A stretch of DNA of 64,000 nt. It comes from Erysipelothrix rhusiopathiae. GTDB taxonomy: Bacteria > Bacillota_I > Bacilli_A > Erysipelotrichales > Erysipelotrichaceae. Shown here piece by piece: positions 23,666-49,038 of the stretch. The stretch lies in the NCBI RefSeq assembly GCF_900637845.1, contig NZ_LR134439.1, positions 558,001-622,000 on the forward strand, in the 5' to 3' direction. Every line of letters begins with the position of its first letter. Positions within the stretch are counted from its first letter, which is position 1. The notes below the pieces were generated by a model. The model was not told the origin of the DNA, did no database searches, and saw only the letters and a program-made list of their open reading frames with translations. A program made the position numbers and the translations under genes.

Positions 23666-24787
23666 ATGTCACAACAAAATCAAAATAATCGTACTGTACC
23701 ATCGTCATCTGTTGATAAGACACAAACCTTTTTGCCGAGTGATTCCAATAAGAATCGTACCCGTTGGATCATAATCTTATTGATTCTTGGTTTTATTTCG
23801 GTGGGTGGTTATTTTCTTTGGGATCATGTCTATCGTATCACGAAAATTGATCCGTTTGAGAATGTGAGTGTTCGGTTCCAAGGTGATGGTGAAGGTGCGA
23901 CTGGCTTTATTGAAATCAATAAGAAGTTAATCGAATCAGATCCACAACTAAATCGTGTGCATAAGGCAATTAAATATTCTCTTGAACCGAATCAGGATTT
24001 GAAAATTGGCGATCGGGTCGTCCTAAAAGCGAAAGTACCAGAATCGACACAACGCTTTATGGATTCAAATAAACTTCTATTTACGGATACCGAAAAGGTT
24101 TTTGTAGTTCAGGAAATTCATAACGAAGTGGTCTTTGATCCTTTCGATGGTTTTAAGTTAAGATTCAGCGGATCCAATGGTGAAGGTATTGCGGAAATGG
24201 ATACTTCCGGTGTTCTGTTAGCGGATGATGTTATGTCTGAATTGTTTTCGATGTTAGATTATTCAATTGTGAATCCAAGTGATTTATCGATTGGTGACTC
24301 GGTGACGGTGACGGTTAAACCTTCGACAGCAGGTAAGACCTTTATGTTAGAACACAGAATTATGCTCGCACAAACAAGTATGGCTTTTGATGTGGATACC
24401 TTGGCTAAAGTTCCGAAGAATACAGATGAGATTAATAATCTAGATCGTCTTCGTATTGACGCGAAGAAGCGGGTTGAGGATACGGTTAATGCGGATACGC
24501 AAGAGGTTTATGTCTGTTATGGCATTTTACCTAAGAATATTGCGAATGCTCGAGATCGTGATTCTCAACAAGCTTATGTGAATGGAACTTTAATGTTTGT
24601 TTATCAGTATGAGTATAATAATCGAATGTTTGCGATCGCTTCAGGCTATACCAACTTGATGTTGGAGAGGGATTTAATAGATGAGTCGATGTTGATGCCA
24701 ATGCAACCTGTCTCATACCAACAGTCGCTTGAAAATGTATTGCTGGAACTTCAGGATAATAATCTTACGTGTTCACCGACTTCTTAA
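23666..24787 (+). CDS. Single-pass membrane protein with duplicated extracellular domain, unknown function
   Basis: 373 residues. About 36 cytoplasmic residues rich in Gln, Asn and Ser precede one membrane helix (WIIILLILGFISVGGYFLW), leaving about 310 residues outside. The outside part begins with two related units of roughly 90 residues, each opening DPF-(E/D)-x-x-x-(V/L)-R-F-x-G-x-(D/N)-G-E-G and ending I-G-D-x-V-x-(L/V)-x-(A/V)-K. A third region follows without the motif. Start behind AAGGAGG. Similar duplicated domains occur behind zinc ribbons in streptococcal membrane proteins, to my recollection, without known role. Confidence 0.6.
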   Translation: MSQQNQNNRTVPSSSVDKTQTFLPSDSNKNRTRWIIILLILGFISVGGYFLWDHVYRITKIDPFENVSVRFQGDGEGATGFIEINKKLIESDPQLNRVHKAIKYSLEPNQDLKIGDRVVLKAKVPESTQRFMDSNKLLFTDTEKVFVVQEIHNEVVFDPFDGFKLRFSGSNGEGIAEMDTSGVLLADDVMSELFSMLDYSIVNPSDLSIGDSVTVTVKPSTAGKTFMLEHRIMLAQTSMAFDVDTLAKVPKNTDEINNLDRLRIDAKKRVEDTVNADTQEVYVCYGILPKNIANARDRDSQQAYVNGTLMFVYQYEYNNRMFAIASGYTNLMLERDLIDESMLMPMQPVSYQQSLENVLLELQDNNLTCSPTS

Positions 24788-24807
24788 TGCCTTCGGGCAT
24801 TTTTTTT
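24786..24807 (+). terminator. Terminator overlapping the membrane protein stop
   Basis: atgcc / ggcat stem closed by a stable TTCG loop, then eight T. Confidence 0.75.
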
Positions 24808-24878
24808 GCATGAGCGGTTTTGATTTAAGATTGATTAATGAAATTCGGTGCTATACTTGTCGTCGAAAGGAGTTAGTA

Positions 24879-27002
24879 ATGAAAATCAAAGCACTACTAT
24901 TAATGATTTTTTGTATGATGCTTGCGCTTCCCATTGCAGCAGATGATGGGATGGATGATGCAGCACGTCAGCATTTATGGAACAAATATACAATTCCAGC
25001 TGATAGTTTTAGACCGGTAATCCAAATTTTTGAGGATGGTTCACAGACTTTTGTCTGTGATAAAGTTGAGTTAAACTACTACTATACGCTTCTAGAAGAT
25101 GATTTGGATGAGGGGATTGATAACTACCAAAACTATGCTTACATTATTGATACAGCACGCGAAGAACCAGTAATTCGAACGAATCGTTATGATATGCGAG
25201 GTATTTTGCGTAAACAAAAGATTACAATACCTCAATTAGATCTAACACGTCCTAAAAGACTTCCATTTAAAATTAGAAGTCTAAAGAAAGATGAAGGCAT
25301 GACCCAGTGGTATGTCGATGTCAATGATGATTTTCGTGGTGTTCAAAAAGATGGAAAGGGTATGGTTGGCTACGATCTTTATTTAAGTCCATTTCATCTT
25401 GAAAATTATGAACACAACAATCTACTTTTTAATGAACTTGTTGATGTAACCGTTTCGGTGATACGGGCTCAAGATGGCAAAGAACCGGATATTAAACGGT
25501 ATACCTTAACAAAGTCCAAACCTCTAATCACATTTGAAGGTGGTCGGATCGAAGTTAGTCATGAACAAGGAATGAAACACATTCGTTTGGTTGATGATGG
25601 TACATTTGGTTACGGTCAGCTCAAATTTGAGGTGGAAGGAAGCGGTGCTTCCATAACAAAAGACCCAGACAAACCCTTAGATGATTTACCAATGGGACTA
25701 AGAGCTCGATTTGATTTGTTTGATTCAAAACGCAAAAGTATTCGTTTTAATGAGTTGGATGAAGTGCGTATTTTAGAAGAACATAACACACCACGAGGAA
25801 CGGTTGTACATCATGTTTATAGTGATGACCGGAACTATGGATGTAGTTTAACGGATTTGAAACAGAAACATGATAAGTATGTTGATACGATTGTAAATCG
25901 TATGGTGAATCGATTCAATCAACTTGATGAAAGTAAAAAGCAAAGTTTACTTGAAAAACATGACGTTAAAACAAGTCAAGATTTGGCGGATTTAATGGAG
26001 CATTACGACCTTAATATTTATCCTTTTGAACTCAATACAAAGAATGATTTATTTCCGCAACAGGGAGCGTCAAATACCGCTTTGAAGGATGTTGAGGAAT
26101 CAACTGAGATAAGTTCAAAAGAAATGAAAGTTCCAGTAGGAAAAATCCAGTCTGATAATCATCAGCAATCAGACTTAATCTCTGAAAAAACAAAAGACCT
26201 GCAAACTGAACCTCTACCAGGTAACGTCACATTAGATGCTTCAAAACCAAGCGAGTCCAAGTCTATACAAATAGGGGCGATAAAGGACACAGAGCAAATA
26301 ATGGAGAAAAATCATGACATGCATACAGAATCTTCGCTTTCAAATGCGGTAACAAATGAGCCCAAACCAAGTGCTTCTAAAACATTCGTTTCTACCCAAG
26401 TAGAGCCGAACAAAGAGATAAAATTGATATCACCTTCAATGGATATGAAAATGAATCGGTTGATTCAAAATGAGGAGGTCATGCCTGAGAGTCATTCACA
26501 TCTCGAACAACTATTACCTAAATTTAGACCATTTGAGTCGGTAGTTAAAGATGGAATCGTAACAAACCAACAGGATAATTCTGAACCTATATTGATGCGA
26601 AGTCCTAGGTACGTAGACTCTAAGCCTGCGAATAAAACACATGATTCCTTAATGTATCATGTAGTTAAAGAAGACAAAGATATGGACGTTAATACAAGTA
26701 GTTCACAGGCATTAAAACAAAGTATACCGCAAGATGTGGAAAGTCCTGTTCTAATGAACTTGATGCATAAGCAGGCGGTAGAACATTTAAATGATCCAAA
26801 TCATCAGGACTTAGAAGTACAAGCGCCTCTTTCACATGAAGTACAAAAGGGCACTGAATATTCAAAGAATACAAGAGACGATCTAAAACCTCTTCACAGT
26901 AAGCCAAAATACCTACCGGCAACCGGAGTGCCTGAGCAATCATCATGGTTACTCGGATCTTTACTTTGCATTCTCGGAATCCTATTCCGTCATAAACGAT
27001 AA
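24879..27002 (+). CDS. LPxTG cell-wall anchored surface protein
   Basis: 707 residues from the ATG behind AAAGGAG; longer readings run into the preceding gene and lack a ribosome site. A signal peptide ends near AAADDG. An N-terminal globular region (about 25-350) shows no motif I recognise. A long low-complexity stalk rich in Ser, Lys, Glu, Asn and His follows (about 385-670), then LPATG, a hydrophobic helix and RHKR. This is a sortase substrate. The gene follows the membrane protein by 91 bp and ends at a bidirectional terminator. A role in host contact is possible but not shown by sequence. Confidence 0.75.
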   Translation: MKIKALLLMIFCMMLALPIAADDGMDDAARQHLWNKYTIPADSFRPVIQIFEDGSQTFVCDKVELNYYYTLLEDDLDEGIDNYQNYAYIIDTAREEPVIRTNRYDMRGILRKQKITIPQLDLTRPKRLPFKIRSLKKDEGMTQWYVDVNDDFRGVQKDGKGMVGYDLYLSPFHLENYEHNNLLFNELVDVTVSVIRAQDGKEPDIKRYTLTKSKPLITFEGGRIEVSHEQGMKHIRLVDDGTFGYGQLKFEVEGSGASITKDPDKPLDDLPMGLRARFDLFDSKRKSIRFNELDEVRILEEHNTPRGTVVHHVYSDDRNYGCSLTDLKQKHDKYVDTIVNRMVNRFNQLDESKKQSLLEKHDVKTSQDLADLMEHYDLNIYPFELNTKNDLFPQQGASNTALKDVEESTEISSKEMKVPVGKIQSDNHQQSDLISEKTKDLQTEPLPGNVTLDASKPSESKSIQIGAIKDTEQIMEKNHDMHTESSLSNAVTNEPKPSASKTFVSTQVEPNKEIKLISPSMDMKMNRLIQNEEVMPESHSHLEQLLPKFRPFESVVKDGIVTNQQDNSEPILMRSPRYVDSKPANKTHDSLMYHVVKEDKDMDVNTSSSQALKQSIPQDVESPVLMNLMHKQAVEHLNDPNHQDLEVQAPLSHEVQKGTEYSKNTRDDLKPLHSKPKYLPATGVPEQSSWLLGSLLCILGILFRHKR

Positions 27003-27006
27003 AAAA

Positions 27007-27030
27007 AAAGACCCAGGAAGCAGGGTCTTT
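27007..27030. terminator. Bidirectional terminator with long A/T flanks
   Basis: 8-bp stem aaagaccc / gggtcttt and an 8-nt loop AGGAAGCA. On the plus strand it ends the LPxTG gene with five T. On the minus strand the flank gives a ten-base U tract, the stronger direction, which would end any leftward transcript coming through the stem-loop region at 27051-27318. Confidence 0.85.
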
Positions 27031-27050
27031 TTCAATTATTATATTATGTG

Positions 27051-27318
27051 TACTTTCTACTAAGACGGGATATAGTAGGAAGTATTGCGCTTACTGATAG
27101 CAGTGTAATTAAGGAAGAGCGACGTAAACGTCTATCTGCTATCATATCTAAACCTTAACTATATCGGAGAATTAAGGCTTAGTTGACCTTCTGCGATTGG
27201 AAGCCGGTAGAAGGGCACTGAATTGTGATAAAGGAGAAATTACAAGTTGTAAGACACAGATTCAGTGTAATATTTGGAGAAATGTTTATACGAACGATTT
27301 GTGGAGCCTTCGTATAAA
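27051..27318. ncRNA. Candidate structured RNA: six consecutive stem-loops
   Basis: No gene fits here. Read by eye, the bases form: SL1 27051-27084 (12 bp including one G-T wobble); SL2 27095-27144 (9-bp outer stem with inner GACG/CGTC hairpin); SL3 27148-27182 (10 bp plus one A-C mismatch); SL4 27187-27214 (8 bp with one wobble); SL5 27216-27267 (8+4 bp with a one-base bulge); SL6 27285-27318 (10 bp perfect). Unpaired parts carry GGA near 27068, 27113, 27167, 27199, 27234, 27277 and 27303, with GGAGAA three times. On the minus strand these are UCC/UUCUCC loops in a 3' UTR of the isomerase gene. Strand is undecided: two wobbles favour plus; the terminator at 27007 favours minus. Confidence 0.5.
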
Positions 27319-27330
27319 TTAATTATTTTA

Positions 27331-27972
27331 TTAAGCAGCTAATACTGAAGTAAGGTATTCAGCGATTTCTGCATCTTGACAGCTTGCAAAGAATAATTCT
27401 TTGAATTCAGGGTAGTCAATTGTTTCTTTTAAGAAGTCTTGATCGATTTCTTTAAGAATTTTGATTAATGGTTGGTGTGTAACTTCTTTAACACCATCTA
27501 AGATTTTTTTGTTGCGTTGTTCAGGGATAACGCGATCTTTAGGATATCCACCACCAAATGATTCTGAGAATAATTTTTCGAATGTGTAGTTAAGGTTTAA
27601 TTCTCCACCCCAACCGAATCCTTGTGCAAATGGCATTGCAATACAGTTACCATCGTTTACTTGACCGAATAGGTAAGCGTCTAATGGGTTTGTAACGTGT
27701 CCGCAAAGTACATTTGGGAATGAGTTACATGCTAACATAGCACCTTGACCTGTTCCACAACCTGTAACAACAAAGTCTACTGCTTTTGTAGTTAATAAGA
27801 TTGAAGCAAGAAGTCCGTTTTTAACATATGTTAATTGGTGTTCTTGTTCACCGTTGTACATACCGTAGTTTACAACTGTGTGCCCAGCTTTTTCAGCTTC
27901 TTGTGTTAATGATGCTAAGATAATTCCGTTTTTAGCAGCTTGTGAGTTTTCGTTAATTAATGCAATTTTCAT
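27331..27972 (-). CDS. dhuI: RpiB/LacA/LacB-type isomerase, probable unsaturated-uronate isomerase
   Basis: 213 residues from the ATG behind AAAGAGG; a longer frame to 28014 runs through a hairpin and lacks a ribosome site. The RpiB fold is visible in MKIALINENSQAAKN, VVTGCGTGQGAMLACNSFPNV and the following Asn-Asp segment. In streptococci an RpiB-like enzyme (DhuI) converts 4-deoxy-L-threo-5-hexosulose-uronate, freed from unsaturated glycosaminoglycan disaccharides, to 3-deoxy-D-glycero-2,5-hexodiulosonate. Its place as last gene after the dehydrogenase, kinase and aldolase supports that role over pentose isomerisation. Confidence 0.8.
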   Translation of the reverse strand: MKIALINENSQAAKNGIILASLTQEAEKAGHTVVNYGMYNGEQEHQLTYVKNGLLASILLTTKAVDFVVTGCGTGQGAMLACNSFPNVLCGHVTNPLDAYLFGQVNDGNCIAMPFAQGFGWGGELNLNYTFEKLFSESFGGGYPKDRVIPEQRNKKILDGVKEVTHQPLIKILKEIDQDFLKETIDYPEFKELFFASCQDAEIAEYLTSVLAA

Positions 27973-27994
27973 ATTAAATCCTCTTTCTAATAAC

Positions 27995-28018
27995 CCACGT
28001 GGTGTGTCCACCACGTGG
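27995..28018 (-). other. Perfect hairpin between dehydrogenase and isomerase genes
   Basis: 10-bp arms ccacgtggtg and caccacgtgg enclose TGTC. No U tract follows on either strand, so it is not a standard terminator. It lies in the 74-bp gap between two genes of one operon, where it could stabilise or set the end of a processed transcript. Confidence 0.7.
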
Positions 28019-28046: not shown

Positions 28047-28841
28047 CTATGCTGGTTGTTTACCAATGTAAGCTAAGATACCACCATCAACGTAAAGGAT
28101 GTGTCCGTTTACGAAGTCTGATGCTTCTGAAGCTAAGAATACAGCAGGTCCCATTAAATCTTCTGGTTTACCCCAACGTGCAGCTGGTGTTTTTGAAATA
28201 ATGAAGCTGTTGAATGGATGTCCATCAACGCGTAATGGAGCTGTTTGAGGTGTTTCAATATAACCAGGTCCAATTCCATTACATTGAATATTGTGTTCAC
28301 CGTATTCTGATGCAATATTCTTAGTAAGCATTTTTAAACCACCTTTAGCAGCAGCATAAGCACTTACAGTTTCACGTCCAAGTTCACTCATCATTGAACA
28401 GATGTTAATGATTTTACCGTGTCCTTTTTCGATCATTGAAGGAAGTACAGCTTTTGACATGATGAATGGTCCGTTAAGGTCGATGTCAATAACTTGACGC
28501 CAATCTTCAACTGACATTTCGATCATTGGTACACGTTTGATGATTCCTGCGTTGTTTACAAGAATATCGATTGTTCCAACTTCTGTTTCAATTTGTTTGA
28601 TCATTGCTGTAACTTGTTCTTCATTTGTTACGTCACATACATAACCATGAGCTTTAATGCCTTCTGCTTCGTATGCTGCAAGTCCTTTGTTTACAAGGTC
28701 TTGATTAATATCGTTAAATACGATTGTTGCGCCTGCTTCAGCATATCCTTGAGCTAAAGCAAAACCAATTCCGTATGATGCTCCTGTTACAAGAGCGATT
28801 TTTCCGTCTAAACGGAAGTTTTCCATTTTAAAGTTACTCAT
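28047..28841 (-). CDS. dhuD: SDR dehydrogenase, probable 3-deoxy-hexodiulosonate reductase (DhuD/KduD type)
   Basis: 264 residues, classical short-chain dehydrogenase: TGASYGIG (19-26) binds NAD(P), NNAG follows strand 4, the catalytic Tyr and Lys lie in SAYAAAKGG, and PGYIETP is the usual loop. In the streptococcal pathway DhuD reduces 3-deoxy-D-glycero-2,5-hexodiulosonate to 2-keto-3-deoxygluconate, the substrate of the next gene product (KDG kinase). AAAGGAA precedes the ATG. It starts 14 bp after the kinase stop. Confidence 0.85.
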   Translation of the reverse strand: MSNFKMENFRLDGKIALVTGASYGIGFALAQGYAEAGATIVFNDINQDLVNKGLAAYEAEGIKAHGYVCDVTNEEQVTAMIKQIETEVGTIDILVNNAGIIKRVPMIEMSVEDWRQVIDIDLNGPFIMSKAVLPSMIEKGHGKIINICSMMSELGRETVSAYAAAKGGLKMLTKNIASEYGEHNIQCNGIGPGYIETPQTAPLRVDGHPFNSFIISKTPAARWGKPEDLMGPAVFLASEASDFVNGHILYVDGGILAYIGKQPA

Positions 28842-28855
28842 ATTTAATTCCTTTC

Positions 28856-29878
28856 CTATCGTTGTACACGACCTGAACCGTCACCTTTAGCAAGTGTTTC
28901 CACTTCCTGAACAGTAACACGGTTGTAATCACCCTCTACAGAGTGTTTTAGACAGCTAGCTGCTGTAGCAAATTCAATTGCATCTTGCGGTGTATAATCA
29001 TGTAGCATTGAATAAATTAATCCAGCACCGAATGAGTCTCCACCACCAACGCGGTCTACAATACGAACGTTATATTTCTTTGAGAAATAAGCTTGATCGC
29101 CTGTATAAAGCATTGTTGACCAATTGTTATCACTTGCTGAGATGCTTTCACGTAATGTGATTGCAACTGCTTTAAAGTTAAAGCGCTCGTGAAGTTGTTT
29201 TGCAACATCAATATAACCATCATGGTTGATTTCACCTGTTGTGATATCTGTGTTTGAAGCTGAAATTCCAAATACATCGTGTGAATCTTCTTCGTTTGCG
29301 ATGACAACATCAACATACTCCATTAATTCACCCATTGTTTTATTTGCTTGTTCATTACTCCATAACTTCTTACGGAAGTTAAGATCACAACTCACAGTTA
29401 AACCGTGTTTTTTAGCTGCTTTTGCAGCTTGTAGTGTAATTTCGGCTACGTTTTCACCTAAAGCAGGTGTGATTCCTGTGGTATGGAACCAGTCATAACC
29501 TTCAAAAATTGCATCCCAGTCAAAATCTTCTGGCTTTGCTTCAGCGATTGCGGAATGTGCACGGTCATAAACAACTTGACTTGCACGTTGTGAAGCACCT
29601 TTTTCCAAGAAGTAGATACCTACACGATCACCACCACGTGTGATCTTGCTTGTATCAACACCATAACGACGTAAATCGTTAACAGCGTTTTGTCCAATTG
29701 CGTGGGTTGGTAATTTTGTTACAAATGCTGCGTCCACTCCAAAGTTTGAAAGTGAAACAGCAACGTTTGCTTCGCCACCGCCGTAAGTCGCTTGATATCG
29801 ATCAGCTTGCGAAAAACGGAGGTAACCTTCTGGAGCAAGACGAAGCATAATTTCTCCAAATGTAATTACTTTTTTCAT
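28856..29878 (-). CDS. kdgK: PfkB family 2-keto-3-deoxygluconate kinase
   Basis: 340 residues of the ribokinase/PfkB family. FGEIMLRLAPEG opens the protein as in KDG kinases, GGGEANVAVSLSNFG is the first PfkB signature region, and VDRVGGGDSFGAGLIYSM is the second with the catalytic Asp. It phosphorylates KDG to KDPG, which the aldolase encoded 14 bp upstream in the same transcript then cleaves. Confidence 0.88.
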   Translation of the reverse strand: MKKVITFGEIMLRLAPEGYLRFSQADRYQATYGGGEANVAVSLSNFGVDAAFVTKLPTHAIGQNAVNDLRRYGVDTSKITRGGDRVGIYFLEKGASQRASQVVYDRAHSAIAEAKPEDFDWDAIFEGYDWFHTTGITPALGENVAEITLQAAKAAKKHGLTVSCDLNFRKKLWSNEQANKTMGELMEYVDVVIANEEDSHDVFGISASNTDITTGEINHDGYIDVAKQLHERFNFKAVAITLRESISASDNNWSTMLYTGDQAYFSKKYNVRIVDRVGGGDSFGAGLIYSMLHDYTPQDAIEFATAASCLKHSVEGDYNRVTVQEVETLAKGDGSGRVQR

Positions 29879-29891
29879 TTAAATACCCTCT

Positions 29892-30869
29892 CTACATCTT
29901 CACGTCAGGATTGATCAAATGAATGGCAAATCCTGCGATTTCTTTATCTAAGTATGCAAAGTTGATTTTGTTTGTTTTCTTGTTGCGAGTAATTGTTTCT
30001 TCTACAACATGGATACCTTTTTTCTCTAATTGATACAGAGCACGTTCTGGGTAAGGGGTGTAAATTCCAAAGTGTCCGTGTTTGCCACGTCCCACTGAGT
30101 TTAGGAATTCAAAACCACGACCTGCGAAATGACTCTTAGGTTTTCCATAATACTTAAATCCAAACAAATTACATAATACTTCAGCATTTTCTTTGGCTTC
30201 TTCACTAGTGTTGTTATTGAAACCAATATGAATTAATTCATATGATAACAATGCATCCACTGCTTCACGACTAAGGCGTTCAACGGTATCCCAATCTTTA
30301 GCTGCAATCGCATCAGCAGGTAACATGAAGCTACCACCAATAGCATTAATGCAAGGTAAAGCTAAGTAATCATGCATGTTCTTAGCATTAATTCCGCCTG
30401 TTGGCATAAATGTAATGTCAGCATACGGTGCACTGAGGTCTTTGATCTTCTTAGCACCACCACTTGATTCTGCAGGGAAGAACTTAACGTTTGTCAATCC
30501 GTAAGAGATTGCTGTTTCAAGTTCTGATGCTGTAGAAATTCCAGGTAATACAAGAACATCATTTTCAACACACCATTTCACAACGTCATGATTAAATCCA
30601 GGTGTTACAATGAACTGTGCCCCAGCCTTGATTGCAGTTTCGGCTTGGGAAACTGATGAGACAGTACCCGCTCCAATTAACATATCTGGTAATTCTTTAG
30701 CGATGATTTCGATTCCGGGTAACGCAAATTCACTTCGGAATGTGATTTCCATACAATCGATGCCACCGTTATAAAGTGCTTGTGCCATTGGCAATGCATC
30801 TTCGATTTCAGTTATTTTAACTACGGGAACGATACCGATTTTTTCAACTCTATTTAAAACTTCACTCAT
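29892..30869 (-). CDS. kdgA: KDPG/KHG aldolase fused to a VOC (glyoxalase-like) domain
   Basis: 325 residues. Residues 1-210 are a complete KDPG aldolase: Glu41 in MEITFR, GAGTV, TPGFN and the Schiff-base Lys129 in VKFFPAE. It cleaves KDPG to pyruvate and glyceraldehyde-3-P. Residues about 212-320 form an extra domain (LIHIGFNNNTSEEAKENAEVLC, then GRGKHGHFGIYTPYPERALYQLEKKGI, FAIHLINP) that looks like a vicinal oxygen chelate fold; plain aldolases of about 210 residues lack it. Its job is unknown. First gene of the leftward operon, behind a TTGACA/TATTAT promoter with a LacI-type operator in the spacer. Confidence 0.87.
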   Translation of the reverse strand: MSEVLNRVEKIGIVPVVKITEIEDALPMAQALYNGGIDCMEITFRSEFALPGIEIIAKELPDMLIGAGTVSSVSQAETAIKAGAQFIVTPGFNHDVVKWCVENDVLVLPGISTASELETAISYGLTNVKFFPAESSGGAKKIKDLSAPYADITFMPTGGINAKNMHDYLALPCINAIGGSFMLPADAIAAKDWDTVERLSREAVDALLSYELIHIGFNNNTSEEAKENAEVLCNLFGFKYYGKPKSHFAGRGFEFLNSVGRGKHGHFGIYTPYPERALYQLEKKGIHVVEETITRNKKTNKINFAYLDKEIAGFAIHLINPDVKM

Positions 30870-30913
30870 ATAGTAGTCTCCCTTTTATTTTGACCAATGT
30901 CCAGTCGGTCTCT

Positions 30914-30925
30914 AGCAAACCAGCT
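30914..30925. promoter_or_regulatory. Weak LacI-type operator near the leftward start site
   Basis: GCAAACCAGCTA resembles TAAACCAGTTTA at 31104, with about three mismatches, and lies about 10 bp downstream of the leftward -10 box. Confidence 0.4.
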
Positions 30926-30931
30926 AAGACA

Positions 30932-30960
30932 ATAATAGGTGAGTAAACCGGTTTTGTCAA
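30932..30960 (-). promoter_or_regulatory. Promoter of the leftward KDG operon
   Basis: On the minus strand, TTGACA (30955-30960) and TATTAT (30932-30937) with an exact 17-bp spacer. The palindrome AAACCGGTTT fills the spacer. Confidence 0.75.
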
Positions 30961-30970
30961 CTGGTTTACT
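30943..30970. promoter_or_regulatory. Double LacI-type operator
   Basis: AAACCGGTTT (30945-30954, perfect palindrome) and AACTGGTTTA (30959-30968) lie 14 bp apart, and together form a larger inverted repeat (agtaaaccggtt / aactggtttact, one mismatch). They cover the spacer and -35 box of the leftward promoter, so binding there should repress. Confidence 0.75.
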
Positions 30971-31031
30971 AAAAAAATAAAGTTTCGCCTATATATAAGG
31001 ACTAAATTGTGAAAAAAATGATAATTTCACA

Positions 31032-31045
31032 TGAAAGCGGTTAGA
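31032..31045 (+). promoter_or_regulatory. cre site for CcpA
   Basis: TGAAAGCGGTTAGA matches 13 of 14 positions of TGWAANCGNTNWCA. It lies 17 bp upstream of the -35 box of the hydrolase-PTS promoter. Confidence 0.5.
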
Positions 31046-31062
31046 TTTATTAAAAAAAACCG

Positions 31063-31091
31063 TTGACATGACAAAAATCAAGGGCTATAAT
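31063..31091 (+). promoter_or_regulatory. Consensus sigma-A promoter of the hydrolase-PTS operon
   Basis: TTGACA (31063-31068), 17-bp spacer, TATAAT (31086-31091): exact consensus. The ATG of the hydrolase follows at 31142. Confidence 0.88.
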
Positions 31092-31103
31092 GCGTATGTC
31101 CAG

Positions 31104-31115
31104 TAAACCAGTTTA
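31104..31115. promoter_or_regulatory. LacI-type operator just after the start site
   Basis: TAAACCAGTTTA, a near-perfect palindrome, 12 bp after the -10 box, in the position of a roadblock or repression operator. Confidence 0.75.
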
Positions 31116-31141
31116 TAAACGTTTTTCAAGGAGGTACTTAC

Positions 31142-32338
31142 ATGGAAAAGCATATTAAGCAAGTGACCATTGAGCCAATCCGCGATATTGATATTTTCAA
31201 GAATGCAACACTGCTTACAAAAGAAGAAGTGAAGCAAGCAATTGAAGATACCATTAAGAAGATTGATCTCAATATGGAGCACATTGGTGAGCGCTTCCCA
31301 TGGTCAGCAACAAAAGATCTGAAATATCCGATCATCGATAATATCGAATGGACAGACGGATTTTGGACTGGTCTATTGTGGTTGGCGTATGAATACACAG
31401 GTGATGAGAAGTATCGTGAGCTCGCAGATAAAAATGTTGATTCTTTCCACCACCGTGTTGTAAATGATATTGAAATTGATCACCATGATCTTGGATTCTT
31501 ATATTCATTATCATGTGTGGCAAGTTACAAACTAACAGGTTCTGAAAAAGCGAAAGAAGCTGCTGTTTTAGCGGCTGATAAGCTCATTACCCGTTGGCAA
31601 GAAAAAGGTGAGTTTATACAAGCCTGGGGCGAGTATAACAATCCTGAGCATTACCGTTTCATTATTGATTGCTTATTGAACATCCCATTATTATATTGGG
31701 CAACAGAAGTAACGGGTGATGACAAATATGCGAATATCGCAGAGCGTCATTTCTACACGAGCTGTCAATACGTAATTCGTGATGATGCAAGTGCGTTCCA
31801 CACATTCTACATGGATCCTGAAACAGGTGGTCCAGTACGTGGTGCTACACGTCAAGGTTATAACGATGAGTCATCCTGGGCAAGAGGCCAAGCTTGGGGT
31901 GTTTATGGAATTCCATTAAACTACCGTTATACACATGAAGATGAAGTGTTCCCACTACACGAAGGAATGACAAATTATTTCTTAAACCGTTTACCAAAAG
32001 ATTTCGTATGTTATTGGGATCTCATCTTTACAGATGGTGATGATCAATCACGCGATTCAAGTGCTGCAGCAATTGCAGTATGTGGTATGCTAGAAATGAT
32101 CAAATATATGAAGAATGATGAACTTAAAACTGTGTATGAGGGAGCATCACACACAATCTTAAGATCGTTGATCGACAACTATACAAAAACAACACATGAA
32201 CCAGGAAATCCAGTGCTTTATCACGGTGTCTATTCATGGCACAGTGGAAAAGGTGTGGATGAAGGAAACATCTGGGGCGACTACTATTATTTAGAAGCTC
32301 TAATGCGTCTTTATAAAGACTGGGAATTGTATTGGTAA
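31142..32338 (+). CDS. ugl: Unsaturated glucuronyl hydrolase (GH88)
   Basis: 398 residues, an (alpha/alpha)6 barrel of family GH88, which removes the 4,5-unsaturated uronic acid from disaccharides made by polysaccharide lyases. The two catalytic aspartates of the family are visible: Asp116 in HHDLGF and Asp176 in YRFIIDCLLN. WARGQAWGVYG and the C-terminal SWHSGKGVDEGNIWGDYYYLEAL also fit. There is no signal peptide, so it acts in the cytoplasm on disaccharide imported by the PTS encoded next. AAGGAGG ribosome site, regulated promoter at 31063. Confidence 0.92.
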   Translation: MEKHIKQVTIEPIRDIDIFKNATLLTKEEVKQAIEDTIKKIDLNMEHIGERFPWSATKDLKYPIIDNIEWTDGFWTGLLWLAYEYTGDEKYRELADKNVDSFHHRVVNDIEIDHHDLGFLYSLSCVASYKLTGSEKAKEAAVLAADKLITRWQEKGEFIQAWGEYNNPEHYRFIIDCLLNIPLLYWATEVTGDDKYANIAERHFYTSCQYVIRDDASAFHTFYMDPETGGPVRGATRQGYNDESSWARGQAWGVYGIPLNYRYTHEDEVFPLHEGMTNYFLNRLPKDFVCYWDLIFTDGDDQSRDSSAAAIAVCGMLEMIKYMKNDELKTVYEGASHTILRSLIDNYTKTTHEPGNPVLYHGVYSWHSGKGVDEGNIWGDYYYLEALMRLYKDWELYW

Positions 32339-39961: not shown

Positions 39962-41680
39962 ATGAAAAAAACACTAACAATACTAGTCATACTGATTAAT
40001 TTGTTTGGTTGCCAATTTGTATCATCACCCAGTAATGATGGCACAAACAAAGATTTTGAGAGTGCATTAGATACAGCTTTAGTGTCAATGATTGGAACAA
40101 CCGACCCATCAAGTAATTATCTCTTAGAACATCCTGAAGAATATGATGTGGATGTTGAACATTACGCATTTCGACTTGGAAGTGAAGAAGATTTTGAAAT
40201 GTCGAAAGACTTAATTAAAGATATTCAAAAGAATATCCGTAAGTTTAAAGATCGAACGTTATCAGACCAACAAATTATTGATAAGCGTGTGCTTCTCTAT
40301 GAATTGGAACGCATGGCCTCGGGTTATCAACCATTTCAATTTCAAGTGGATCCAGAGTTGGATGCCATTCCCCAATATCTCGAAGGGTTTACCTTTAGAA
40401 CTGAAAGTGATATTCGTGGCTATTTCTCTTTAATTGACTCAATACCAACGTATTTTGATGAATCTATTGCATTTTATAATAAGACAGAAATGATGACTCA
40501 GTTTGAACATGAAAAGTTAACGGATTTCGTAGCAGTTATGAAAGAACAATCCCTCTCCGATGATTTTTTCTTAATTAAAGGATTTGATTCAAAAATATCA
40601 TCCCTAGAATTTCTTAAAGAATCCGAAAAGACCGCAACCATCCAAGAGAATCGTGAAGCCATCCGAGATGTCTTTTATAATGCTTTTGTGAAGTTGGAGA
40701 ACGATCTTAAAACGGTAAAGACTCGACCCAATCGAGGCCTTGCCCATCTTGAAAACGGAAAAACTTACTATGAGACCTTAATTCCATCATTAAGTGGACG
40801 AAATTTAACAATTCCAGAATTTCAAATGTGGATTAGTAACCGTCGTATTGAAGTTTATCAACGTTTGAAAGCCGTGGAAACCAGTAACAAGCTTCAAGAA
40901 TACCAGGACTTTGAATCCAAGCAAAGCGCACCTGATTACAAAGATGCTTACGCTTTAATTGATGACCTTTATAAGAAAAGTCTAAGAGATTTCCCTGAGA
41001 TTCCTGAAATACCCTATAAAGTTTATAATATCGATGCATCATTAGCGGCTATATCTAATCCGGCATTCTATTATGTTCCGCCAATTGACAGCAATCCAGA
41101 TCACACGCAACGCATCTACATTAATAGTACTTTTGATCCTGCAAACTTTACAACCTTTGCTCATGAAGCAATTCCGGGACATATGTATCAAACACAATAT
41201 ATGCGTGGTATTAAAGGGATGCATCCAATTCGACTGTACATTCGAAATAATGCGATGACCGAAGGTTGGGCACAATATGTTGAACTACTATCCGTCCGAT
41301 ACCTAGGTGGTCCAAAAGGATATGAAGATTATATACGCGATCTTTATGAATCCATGTACTTAATTCTTCTAGAAGTGGATATCGGTATTCATTATAATGA
41401 TTGGAGTCGTGAGGAGATGGGGGCCTTCTTTGATTCGGTATACGTAAACAATACTGAGGAAGAACGGGATGAAATCTATCGTCAAATCATTTTAGAACCA
41501 GGAAATATCTGGAGTTACTATTATGGAGCCATGTCAATTCAAAGCATGAAAGAACGTGCTCAAAAAGAACTCGGGGATGCATTTGATGAGAAAACATTTC
41601 ATCAAATGATTCTTGATTTAGGCAGTGCAAGTTTTGATACAATGGATATACTGTTTGATGAATATTTACAAACTCAATAA
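39962..41680 (+). CDS. DUF885 family lipoprotein, probable metallopeptidase
   Basis: 572 residues. The signal peptide ends in the lipobox LFGC (Cys about residue 18), so it is surface-anchored. The DUF885 zinc motif HEAIPGH lies in TTFAHEAIPGHMYQTQYM, with the downstream Glu in NAMTEGWAQYVE, the arrangement of gluzincin-like peptidases related to carboxypeptidase families. Length fits. Coupled to the upstream hydrolase gene. Probably digests peptides outside the cell. Confidence 0.83.
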   Translation: MKKTLTILVILINLFGCQFVSSPSNDGTNKDFESALDTALVSMIGTTDPSSNYLLEHPEEYDVDVEHYAFRLGSEEDFEMSKDLIKDIQKNIRKFKDRTLSDQQIIDKRVLLYELERMASGYQPFQFQVDPELDAIPQYLEGFTFRTESDIRGYFSLIDSIPTYFDESIAFYNKTEMMTQFEHEKLTDFVAVMKEQSLSDDFFLIKGFDSKISSLEFLKESEKTATIQENREAIRDVFYNAFVKLENDLKTVKTRPNRGLAHLENGKTYYETLIPSLSGRNLTIPEFQMWISNRRIEVYQRLKAVETSNKLQEYQDFESKQSAPDYKDAYALIDDLYKKSLRDFPEIPEIPYKVYNIDASLAAISNPAFYYVPPIDSNPDHTQRIYINSTFDPANFTTFAHEAIPGHMYQTQYMRGIKGMHPIRLYIRNNAMTEGWAQYVELLSVRYLGGPKGYEDYIRDLYESMYLILLEVDIGIHYNDWSREEMGAFFDSVYVNNTEEERDEIYRQIILEPGNIWSYYYGAMSIQSMKERAQKELGDAFDEKTFHQMILDLGSASFDTMDILFDEYLQTQ

Positions 41681-41735
41681 AAAAACACCAATACAATATG
41701 GAACTGACCAAGTTCCGTCGTATTGGTGTTTTTTT
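41681..41735. terminator. Long bidirectional terminator
   Basis: 14-bp outer stem (41681-41694 with 41720-41733) with an inner GGAACT/AGTTCC hairpin, A run before and T run after. Confidence 0.85.
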
Positions 41736-42142
41736 TAAGCTTCATTGCGTAATAGGGTGAATAAATACATAATTCCAACAGTTAAGATAATGTGACTTAG
41801 ACCTGCTAGACCTGAAATGGCAGCGGACATTCCTGAAGATAAAGAAATATTTAGGACCTCAGTAAGACCTCGTACCAAAAGCATCAGTGTTGTGGTAATC
41901 ACACCTAAATTATAAGTAATATAGAAGCGATTCCACTTAGGGTTTTTATCAAGATCAAATTTCATAAAGAACAAAGCCACAATCAGGGATAAAATCATAC
42001 CCAAGACCAATAAATGTGGATGAATCAGACTCAATCGTGTAAAACCGGTAAAGCCTTGAAATTTCGTAAATTCGCGATAAAACACACCACCAACAAGTCC
42101 TGCAATCAGATAAGCAAAGGACGTATTAATCATCTTTTTCAT
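41735..42142 (-). CDS. DUF2871 family membrane protein
   Basis: 135 residues with four membrane segments and conserved opening NTSFAYLIAGLVGGVFYREFTK and HPHLLVLGM, as in DUF2871 proteins. It starts 13 bp after the TetR gene in the same direction, a common arrangement in which the regulator controls a small membrane protein. Role unknown. Confidence 0.72.
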   Translation of the reverse strand: MKKMINTSFAYLIAGLVGGVFYREFTKFQGFTGFTRLSLIHPHLLVLGMILSLIVALFFMKFDLDKNPKWNRFYITYNLGVITTTLMLLVRGLTEVLNISLSSGMSAAISGLAGLSHIILTVGIMYLFTLLRNEA

Positions 42143-47944: not shown

Positions 47945-48274
47945 ATGACATTACCTAATTGTCCTCAGTGTACTTCAAAGTACACGTATGAAGATCGAGA
48001 TTTATTCGTATGTCCAGAATGTGGACATGAATGGAATGCCTTGAGCACTCAAGAAGCAATGCTTGTGGTTAAGGATGCACATGGAACGGTGCTTACAGAT
48101 GGTGATGATATCGTCATCACAAAAGACCTTAAAGTAAAAGGGGCATCCAGTGCTTTAAAACAAGGTACAAAGGTTAAAAATATTAAACTTGTGGAAGGGG
48201 ATCATAATATTGATTGTCGCATCGAAGGTTTTGGTGCCATGAGTTTAAAATCAGAATTTGTAAAGAAAGCTTAG
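47945..48274 (+). CDS. phnA: PhnA/YjdM family zinc-ribbon protein
   Basis: 109 residues. The N-terminal zinc ribbon has CPQC and CPECGHEW cysteine pairs; the C-terminal part ([46 protein letters not shown]) is the SH3-like PhnA domain. Despite the old name 'alkylphosphonate utilisation' most members have no proven phosphonate role, and no phosphonate genes are nearby. Confidence 0.88.
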
Positions 48275-48287
48275 TCTTTCTTTTTTT
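48262..48287 (+). terminator. Terminator of the phnA-like gene
   Basis: 8-bp stem aaagaaag / ctttcttt, 6-nt loop, then T run. It overlaps the stop codon. Confidence 0.7.
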
Positions 48288-48298
48288 ATGAGATAAAA

Positions 48299-48318
48299 AA
48301 AGACCGTTTCCGGTCTTA
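48299..48318 (-). terminator. Terminator of nagB
   Basis: Stem aagaccg / cggtctt with a 4-nt loop. The A run at 48295-48300 becomes the U tract on the minus strand. Confidence 0.75.
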
Positions 48319-49038
48319 TTGATGTTTAGAAAGGTCTAATAAAGCTGCTGCAGCTTTATCAATAATTACGATGACATCATCGTGATTTTGAAGTGCACTT
48401 GCAGGACAGTCTTCTGTAGGTGTCCCTTCCATCATATTGTAAACAGCATCTTTTTTCGCATCACCGTATGCAAATAATACGATTTTGCGAGCTGACATGA
48501 TGGATTTAATACCCATTGAGTAAGCATAACGTGGTACATCATCACGAGTTTCAAAGAAACGTGCGTTTGCTTCAATTGTGGATTCTGTAAGTGAAACTTT
48601 TTGTGTTAATCCTTCAAATGATGCTCCCGGTTCATTAAAACCAATATGACCATTGATTCCAAGTCCTAAAATTTGAACATCAATTGGATTTGAAGCAATA
48701 ATATCATCGTAACGTTTACATTCTTTCTCTGCATCTTCTTCCAAACCATTTGGTAAATAGTTTACTTTGAATGGTTTTTTACTGAAGAAATGCTTGTTCA
48801 TGAAGTAGTGGTAACTTTGATCATGATCTGCGCCAATACCAATATATTCATCCAAGTTAATTGAGATAACATTTGAGAAATCTAAATCACTTGCAGTAAT
48901 TTTATCGTAGAATGAAATCGGTGTGCTCCCTGTAGCCAAACCGAATACATTTAATTTTCCTTCGTTTAAATCTTTACTAATGAGTTCGAAACCTAACGCT
49001 GCTCCTGCATCGCTATTTTCTACAACATATAATTTCAT
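48316..49038 (-). CDS. nagB: Glucosamine-6-phosphate deaminase
   Basis: 240 residues from the ATG behind AAGAGAGG; the longer frame to 49101 lacks a ribosome site. Family marks: GLATGSTP, the SINLDEYIGI catalytic Asp stretch, ILGLGINGHIGFNEPG with the active-site His/Asp, and the short C-terminus typical of Firmicute NagB. It converts GlcN-6-P to fructose-6-P and ammonia. It is divergent from nagA across a 155-bp region. Serves both the sialic acid route and the amino-sugar half of hyaluronan. Confidence 0.93.
   Translation of the reverse strand: MKLYVVENSDAGAALGFELISKDLNEGKLNVFGLATGSTPISFYDKITASDLDFSNVISINLDEYIGIGADHDQSYHYFMNKHFFSKKPFKVNYLPNGLEEDAEKECKRYDDIIASNPIDVQILGLGINGHIGFNEPGASFEGLTQKVSLTESTIEANARFFETRDDVPRYAYSMGIKSIMSARKIVLFAYGDAKKDAVYNMMEGTPTEDCPASALQNHDDVIVIIDKAAAALLDLSKHQ

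Follow-up and report, generated by a model that had tools for sequence, protein, structure and literature searches.

The window analyzed here, i.e., the whole stretch of 64,000 nucleotides from the Gram-positive animal pathogen Erysipelothrix (species E. rhusiopathiae), carries on its minus strand a sugar-acid operon whose last gene is followed by an array of hairpins. The features, in the direction of transcription, are:

30932..30960, minus strand: predicted operon promoter, TTGACA-17-TATTAT, 11/12 match
29892..30869, minus strand: KDPG/KHG aldolase, first operon gene
28856..29878, minus strand: PfkB-family kinase, KDG kinase-like
28047..28841, minus strand: short-chain dehydrogenase, DhuD/KduD-like
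27331..28014, minus strand: RpiB/LacAB-type isomerase, last gene (Pfam PF02502, PF12408)
27285..27318, minus strand: hp1, 10-bp stem (arms 27285-27294/27309-27318, 100% complementary); loop GGCUCCACAAAUCG
27275..27284, minus strand: linker CAUUUCUCCA, with a UCUCC motif
27216..27267, minus strand: hp2, 8+4-bp stem with an inner 5-bp hairpin (outer 8-bp arms 27216-27223/27260-27267); unpaired UUUCUCCUUUAU; 1 compensatory pair
27187..27214, minus strand: hp3, 8-bp stem (arms 27187-27194/27207-27214); loop CGGCUUCCAAUC, CUUUC in genome G009
27148..27182, minus strand: hp4, 13-bp stem (arms 27148-27158/27172-27182, 11 nt and 91% complementary, which the minus strand can lengthen to 13 bp); loop CUCCGAUAU; Watson-Crick double changes at 6 pairs
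27095..27144, minus strand: hp5, 9-bp stem (arms 27095-27103/27136-27144, 100% complementary) and inner 4-bp GACG/CGUC stem; unpaired CUCUUCCUUAA
27087..27094, minus strand: spacer GUAAGCGC (octamer GTAAGCGC) between hp5 and hp6, invariant and single-stranded
27051..27084, minus strand: hp6, 12-bp stem (arms 27051-27062/27073-27084, 12 nt, 92% complementary); loop UAUCCCGUCU; Watson-Crick double changes at 5 pairs
27036..27047, minus strand: AU-rich spacer AUAAUAUAAUAA from hp6 to the terminator, invariant in the alignment
27004..27033, minus strand: Rho-independent terminator hairpin with a 9-U tail; loop UGCUUCCU

The gene set, taken together, points to the ketouronate branch of glycosaminoglycan breakdown, and in this operon the isomerase is probably a DhuI-type 4-deoxy-threo-hexosulose-uronate isomerase. 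A divergent operon encodes a GH88 hydrolase, PTS components and a heparinase-like enzyme, and this gene content agrees with the glycosaminoglycan operon that an earlier, sequence-only reading of the locus had named. The segment at 30850-31160 of the window contains divergent promoters, with matches of 12/12 at 31063-31091 (plus) and 11/12 at 30960-30932 (minus), together with repeated CCAGTAAACCAGTTT-like sites that are probably operators of a sugar regulator. The operon has a single minus-strand terminator, at 27033-27004, and none between the last gene and the hairpins. A possible internal promoter, TTGACT-18-TATTCT, lies inside the isomerase gene (27390-27419, minus strand), from which a separate RNA could result; promoter-like sites such as this one are expected here by chance.

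The gene-free region, 27031-27335, occurs once in its own genome, and we thus ruled out a repeat or mobile element. All six consecutive stems described by the sequence-only reading are present. It had counted GGA about seven times, whereas we find eight on the plus strand of 27051-27318, a count matched by only 2.5% of same-size stretches on both strands of the window; the three occurrences of GGAGAA were correctly given. Its placement of GGA/UCC in nearly every loop holds overall, all large loops having UCC on the minus strand, except that one repeated motif (27276-27283) sits in a linker; likewise, the terminator hairpin does have GGA in its loop (CUUCC/GGAAG), but its run is of nine U, not ten. 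A consensus scan allowing one mismatch found no catabolite-repression element in spacer GUAAGCGC.

Occurrence and covariation in the genus

The element is found in four Erysipelothrix genomes only, namely its own and those designated G009, G006 and G004 (97%, 93% and 82% DNA identity), in each of which it lies directly 3' of the same isomerase gene at the end of the operon. Four other members of the genus have the isomerase gene without the element. In two of these, G007 and G003 (loci L032 and L033), the slot after the isomerase gene is taken by a reading frame that probably encodes a membrane protein and has a terminator of its own, and G002 has a possible remnant; the octamer GTAAGCGC is also present 3' of the isomerase gene in these RNA-less sister species. 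Covariance models detected no further homologues beyond the four species among 145 genomes of the family and 13 of the genus. One match, in G012 (E 0.002), was rejected because it spans the end of an LPXTG gene and a terminator. A DNA pattern run across 85k species returned E. tonsillarum and four matches in unrelated groups, which is about the chance expectation.

The terminator sequence is kept in all four genomes up to GACCCTGCTTC, and the whole hairpin in three. Just after GACCCTGCTTC, the terminator loop of G009 is split by an insertion with a transposase-like frame (L009 1820-3306), which is probably an IS element; G009 has thus an interrupted terminator, and it has also lost one motif.

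To assess covariation, as the sequence-only reading had proposed, the hairpins were aligned by hand across the four species. Watson-Crick pairs occupy 272 of the 294 cells of this alignment, and 13 stem pairs show double changes from one Watson-Crick pair to another, against a shuffle mean of 4.2, a number reached in none of 20,000 shuffles. The hand alignment omits one bulged U each in hp4 and hp6 of G004, and so leans towards structure. An independent MAFFT alignment of hp4-hp6 contains 9 double-change cells, versus 3.7 upon shuffling (0/500 as high). Most of the double changes are in hp4 (6) and hp6 (5). Taken singly, hp1, hp2, hp3 and hp5 covary little or not at all, hp1-hp3 being too conserved for such an analysis. 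With a sample of no more than four sequences, of which three are about 90-95% alike, hp4 and hp6 are strongly supported, and the evidence on the other hairpins is suggestive. Stems do not exceed unpaired parts significantly in overall variability (P 0.12). We are highly confident that the element is a real, clade-specific conserved structured RNA.

Probable strand of the RNA and predicted exposure of its UCC motifs

The minus strand of 27051-27318 has a fold z of -5.8, below all 120 sampled windows, whereas the plus strand has -2.45, a value that 7.5% of the sampled windows attain. The same holds across the four species, where z ranges from -3.3 to -6.1 for the minus strand and from -2.0 to -4.1 for the plus strand, the minus strand being lower in each. 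Two other segments of the window, 41541-41808 and 48241-48508, also have very low z (-7.6 on the plus strand and -5.3 on both strands, respectively), and both hold terminator-like hairpins. The counts of G-U cells, 11 for the minus strand versus 5 for the plus strand, provide mild evidence on the strand.

In the minus-strand RNA, UCC is present in 8 of the 11 unpaired segments; random genomic segments average 1.1 (P 5e-6), and shuffles of the loops' own letters 2.9 (P 1.6e-4). Of the eight patches, six are in hairpin or internal loops, one is in the linker and one in the terminator loop. The motif takes the form CUCC in hp1, UCUCC in the linker, hp2 and hp4, CUUCC in hp3, hp5 and the terminator loop, and UCCC in hp6, and its positions are invariant in 32 of 34 cases (P 0.005). 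Partition-function calculations for three genomes, in which the mean unpaired probability of all positions is about 0.46, predict values of 0.89-1.00 for the UCC cores, except in hp3 of two species (0.58 and 0.74). That is, C/U-rich motifs complementary to Shine-Dalgarno sequences are present and predicted to be accessible. The GGA cores of the plus-strand RNA are predicted to be unpaired with probabilities of 0.38-0.99.

The sequence-only reading had left two possibilities, namely a plus-strand RNA with GGA loops of the kind that bind CsrA, or a minus-strand 3' UTR with UCC loops. The former fails, because the genome encodes no CsrA (PF02599; control genomes were positive). In addition, we found on the plus strand no promoter-like site from which such an RNA could start and no terminator 3' of hp1; its fold is less distinct, and its GGA motifs are more buried. 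The upstream plus-strand gene, 24729-27002, ends at the same hairpin at 27004-27033, which on that strand is a weaker terminator. The latter possibility is supported by the compensatory changes, the invariant and exposed motifs and a fitting terminator, with no other terminator in the operon. The structured RNA is thus very probably on the minus strand.

Proposed function, rival explanations and known RNAs

Hfq (PF17209) is also absent from the genome, and KhpA/KhpB-type proteins are encoded in it. On these grounds, and by its likeness to LhrC, RNAIII, RsaE and RsaG, we propose, with moderate confidence, that the element is a multivalent RNA which derives from a 3' UTR, needs no Hfq and would block Shine-Dalgarno sites with its C/U-rich loops. 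It would be made from 27331-27004 (minus strand) as the 3' UTR of the ketouronate operon, i.e., about 290 nt plus the terminator, and would probably be freed by processing of the operon mRNA, or else act within it. The conserved hairpins would hold the eight C/U-rich UCC patches open, and these would pair with other mRNAs at Shine-Dalgarno sites of the GGAG type, possibly with the help of KhpA/KhpB, such that translation of those mRNAs would be repressed upon induction of the operon. The sequences AAGGAG, AGGAGG and GGAGAA are frequent at start sites of the same genome. A bolder version, which we regard as speculative and on balance doubtful, is that the eight anti-Shine-Dalgarno patches, released from a host-polysaccharide operon, repress many mRNAs at once; if this were true, uptake of host glycosaminoglycans would reset translation broadly in a pathogen that is free of Hfq and CsrA.

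To identify possible targets, we predicted 329 start sites in 460 kb of sequence, comprising a 396-kb sample of genome stretches and the window. Interaction energies of the loops with these sites were no better than those of flank-shuffled loops; even for the hp2 loop, the best in this search, 7 of 40 shuffles were equally good. Since the loop flanks do not outperform these controls, the search supports no target. Pattern matches to the hp6 and hp4 loops included no conserved start site among the contexts examined, and none of the weak BLAST matches elsewhere in the genome is a start site that could be a target. The complement of the hp2 loop matches 14 of 16 positions at the start site of a gene that we take to be PTS EIIBC, 3' of a nanE-like gene (both names by sequence recognition), in 4/4 genomes, with contexts from three. 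This start site overlaps the end of the upstream coding sequence, and coding alone could conserve the match. It is a weak candidate target.

Among the alternatives, a 3' UTR acting solely in cis, whose hairpins would shield the operon mRNA from exonucleases or set its decay, fits with the continuity of the hairpins with that mRNA, uninterrupted by a terminator, and with stems that are kept by pairing rather than by sequence. Protection requires stems, however, and would not call for UCC motifs that are invariant and exposed in almost all unpaired segments, and we consider this explanation unlikely. Less probable again is a sponge for another small RNA, in which the C-rich loops would pair with a G-rich partner, as reported for RsaE and RsaI; the element does contain several equivalent motifs, and pairing between small RNAs via UCCCC and GGGG has been described (PMC9217828).

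An independent RNA from the plus strand could act either as a sponge that takes up an RNA-binding protein or as a decoy of the 16S anti-Shine-Dalgarno sequence. The eight GGA occurrences and the ability of this strand to fold are in its favor, yet the lack of CsrA, of a promoter-like site and of a terminator, the weaker z and the less exposed GGA cores speak against it; we consider it improbable, about as much as the small-RNA sponge or slightly more so. Decayed DNA or a coding remnant with chance structure is very improbable: short ORFs of 22-41 aa do overlap the element, but single-base indels between species break them, and decay is at odds with double-compensatory changes and invariant motifs.

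The preferred reading, a multivalent RNA derived from the operon's 3' UTR, can be compared with several known systems. Rfam has no match at gathering score in the whole window, and the available portions of the literature on Erysipelothrix and small RNA give no sign that such a regulatory RNA has been described in the genus; within these sources, and also at permissive Rfam thresholds, the element is indeed undescribed, as the sequence-only reading had supposed. The CsrB/CsrC-type sponges of CsrA share with it a hairpin array and, on the plus strand, GGA loops, but here there is no CsrA and the other strand is favored. RsaE is much shorter than the element. It resembles the element in its repeated C-rich seed motifs, although the element has no Rfam match to it; in S. 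aureus and B. subtilis, two UCCCC motifs of RsaE pair with Shine-Dalgarno sites (PMC9217828). RNAIII of S. aureus is long, with many hairpins and several UCCC loops that pair with Shine-Dalgarno sites (PMC3861533); unlike RNAIII, the element is without a supported coding part, an agr context or an Rfam match.

RsaG of S. aureus is described as a small RNA from the 3' UTR of the sugar transporter gene uhpT, with which it is co-induced (cited in PMC10578931). The element is alike in lying in the 3' UTR of sugar genes, and it shares the terminator of its operon with no terminator in between, a trait of 3' UTR-derived small RNAs; it differs in the operon and in having many more loops, and the Rfam scan indicates no relation in sequence. 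The best permissive Rfam match is LhrC (RF00616), which covers hp6 and the terminator of the minus strand with 26.8 bits (E 0.054) against a gathering score of 110 bits, and thus short of membership. LhrC of Listeria blocks Shine-Dalgarno sites, and its regulation dispenses with Hfq (PMC4132741). Like LhrC, the element has several UCC motifs, distributed over loop, single strand and terminator loop; unlike LhrC, it is a single-copy operon 3' UTR of about 290 nt, with UCCC proper in hp6 only. As the genome lacks both Hfq and CsrA, the proposed RNA would allow base-pairing regulation to be tested where neither protein is present, and, if real, it would link the breakdown of a host tissue polymer to the translation of other genes. 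With eight motifs versus three in LhrC, the element exceeds the motif count of the Gram-positive examples compared here.
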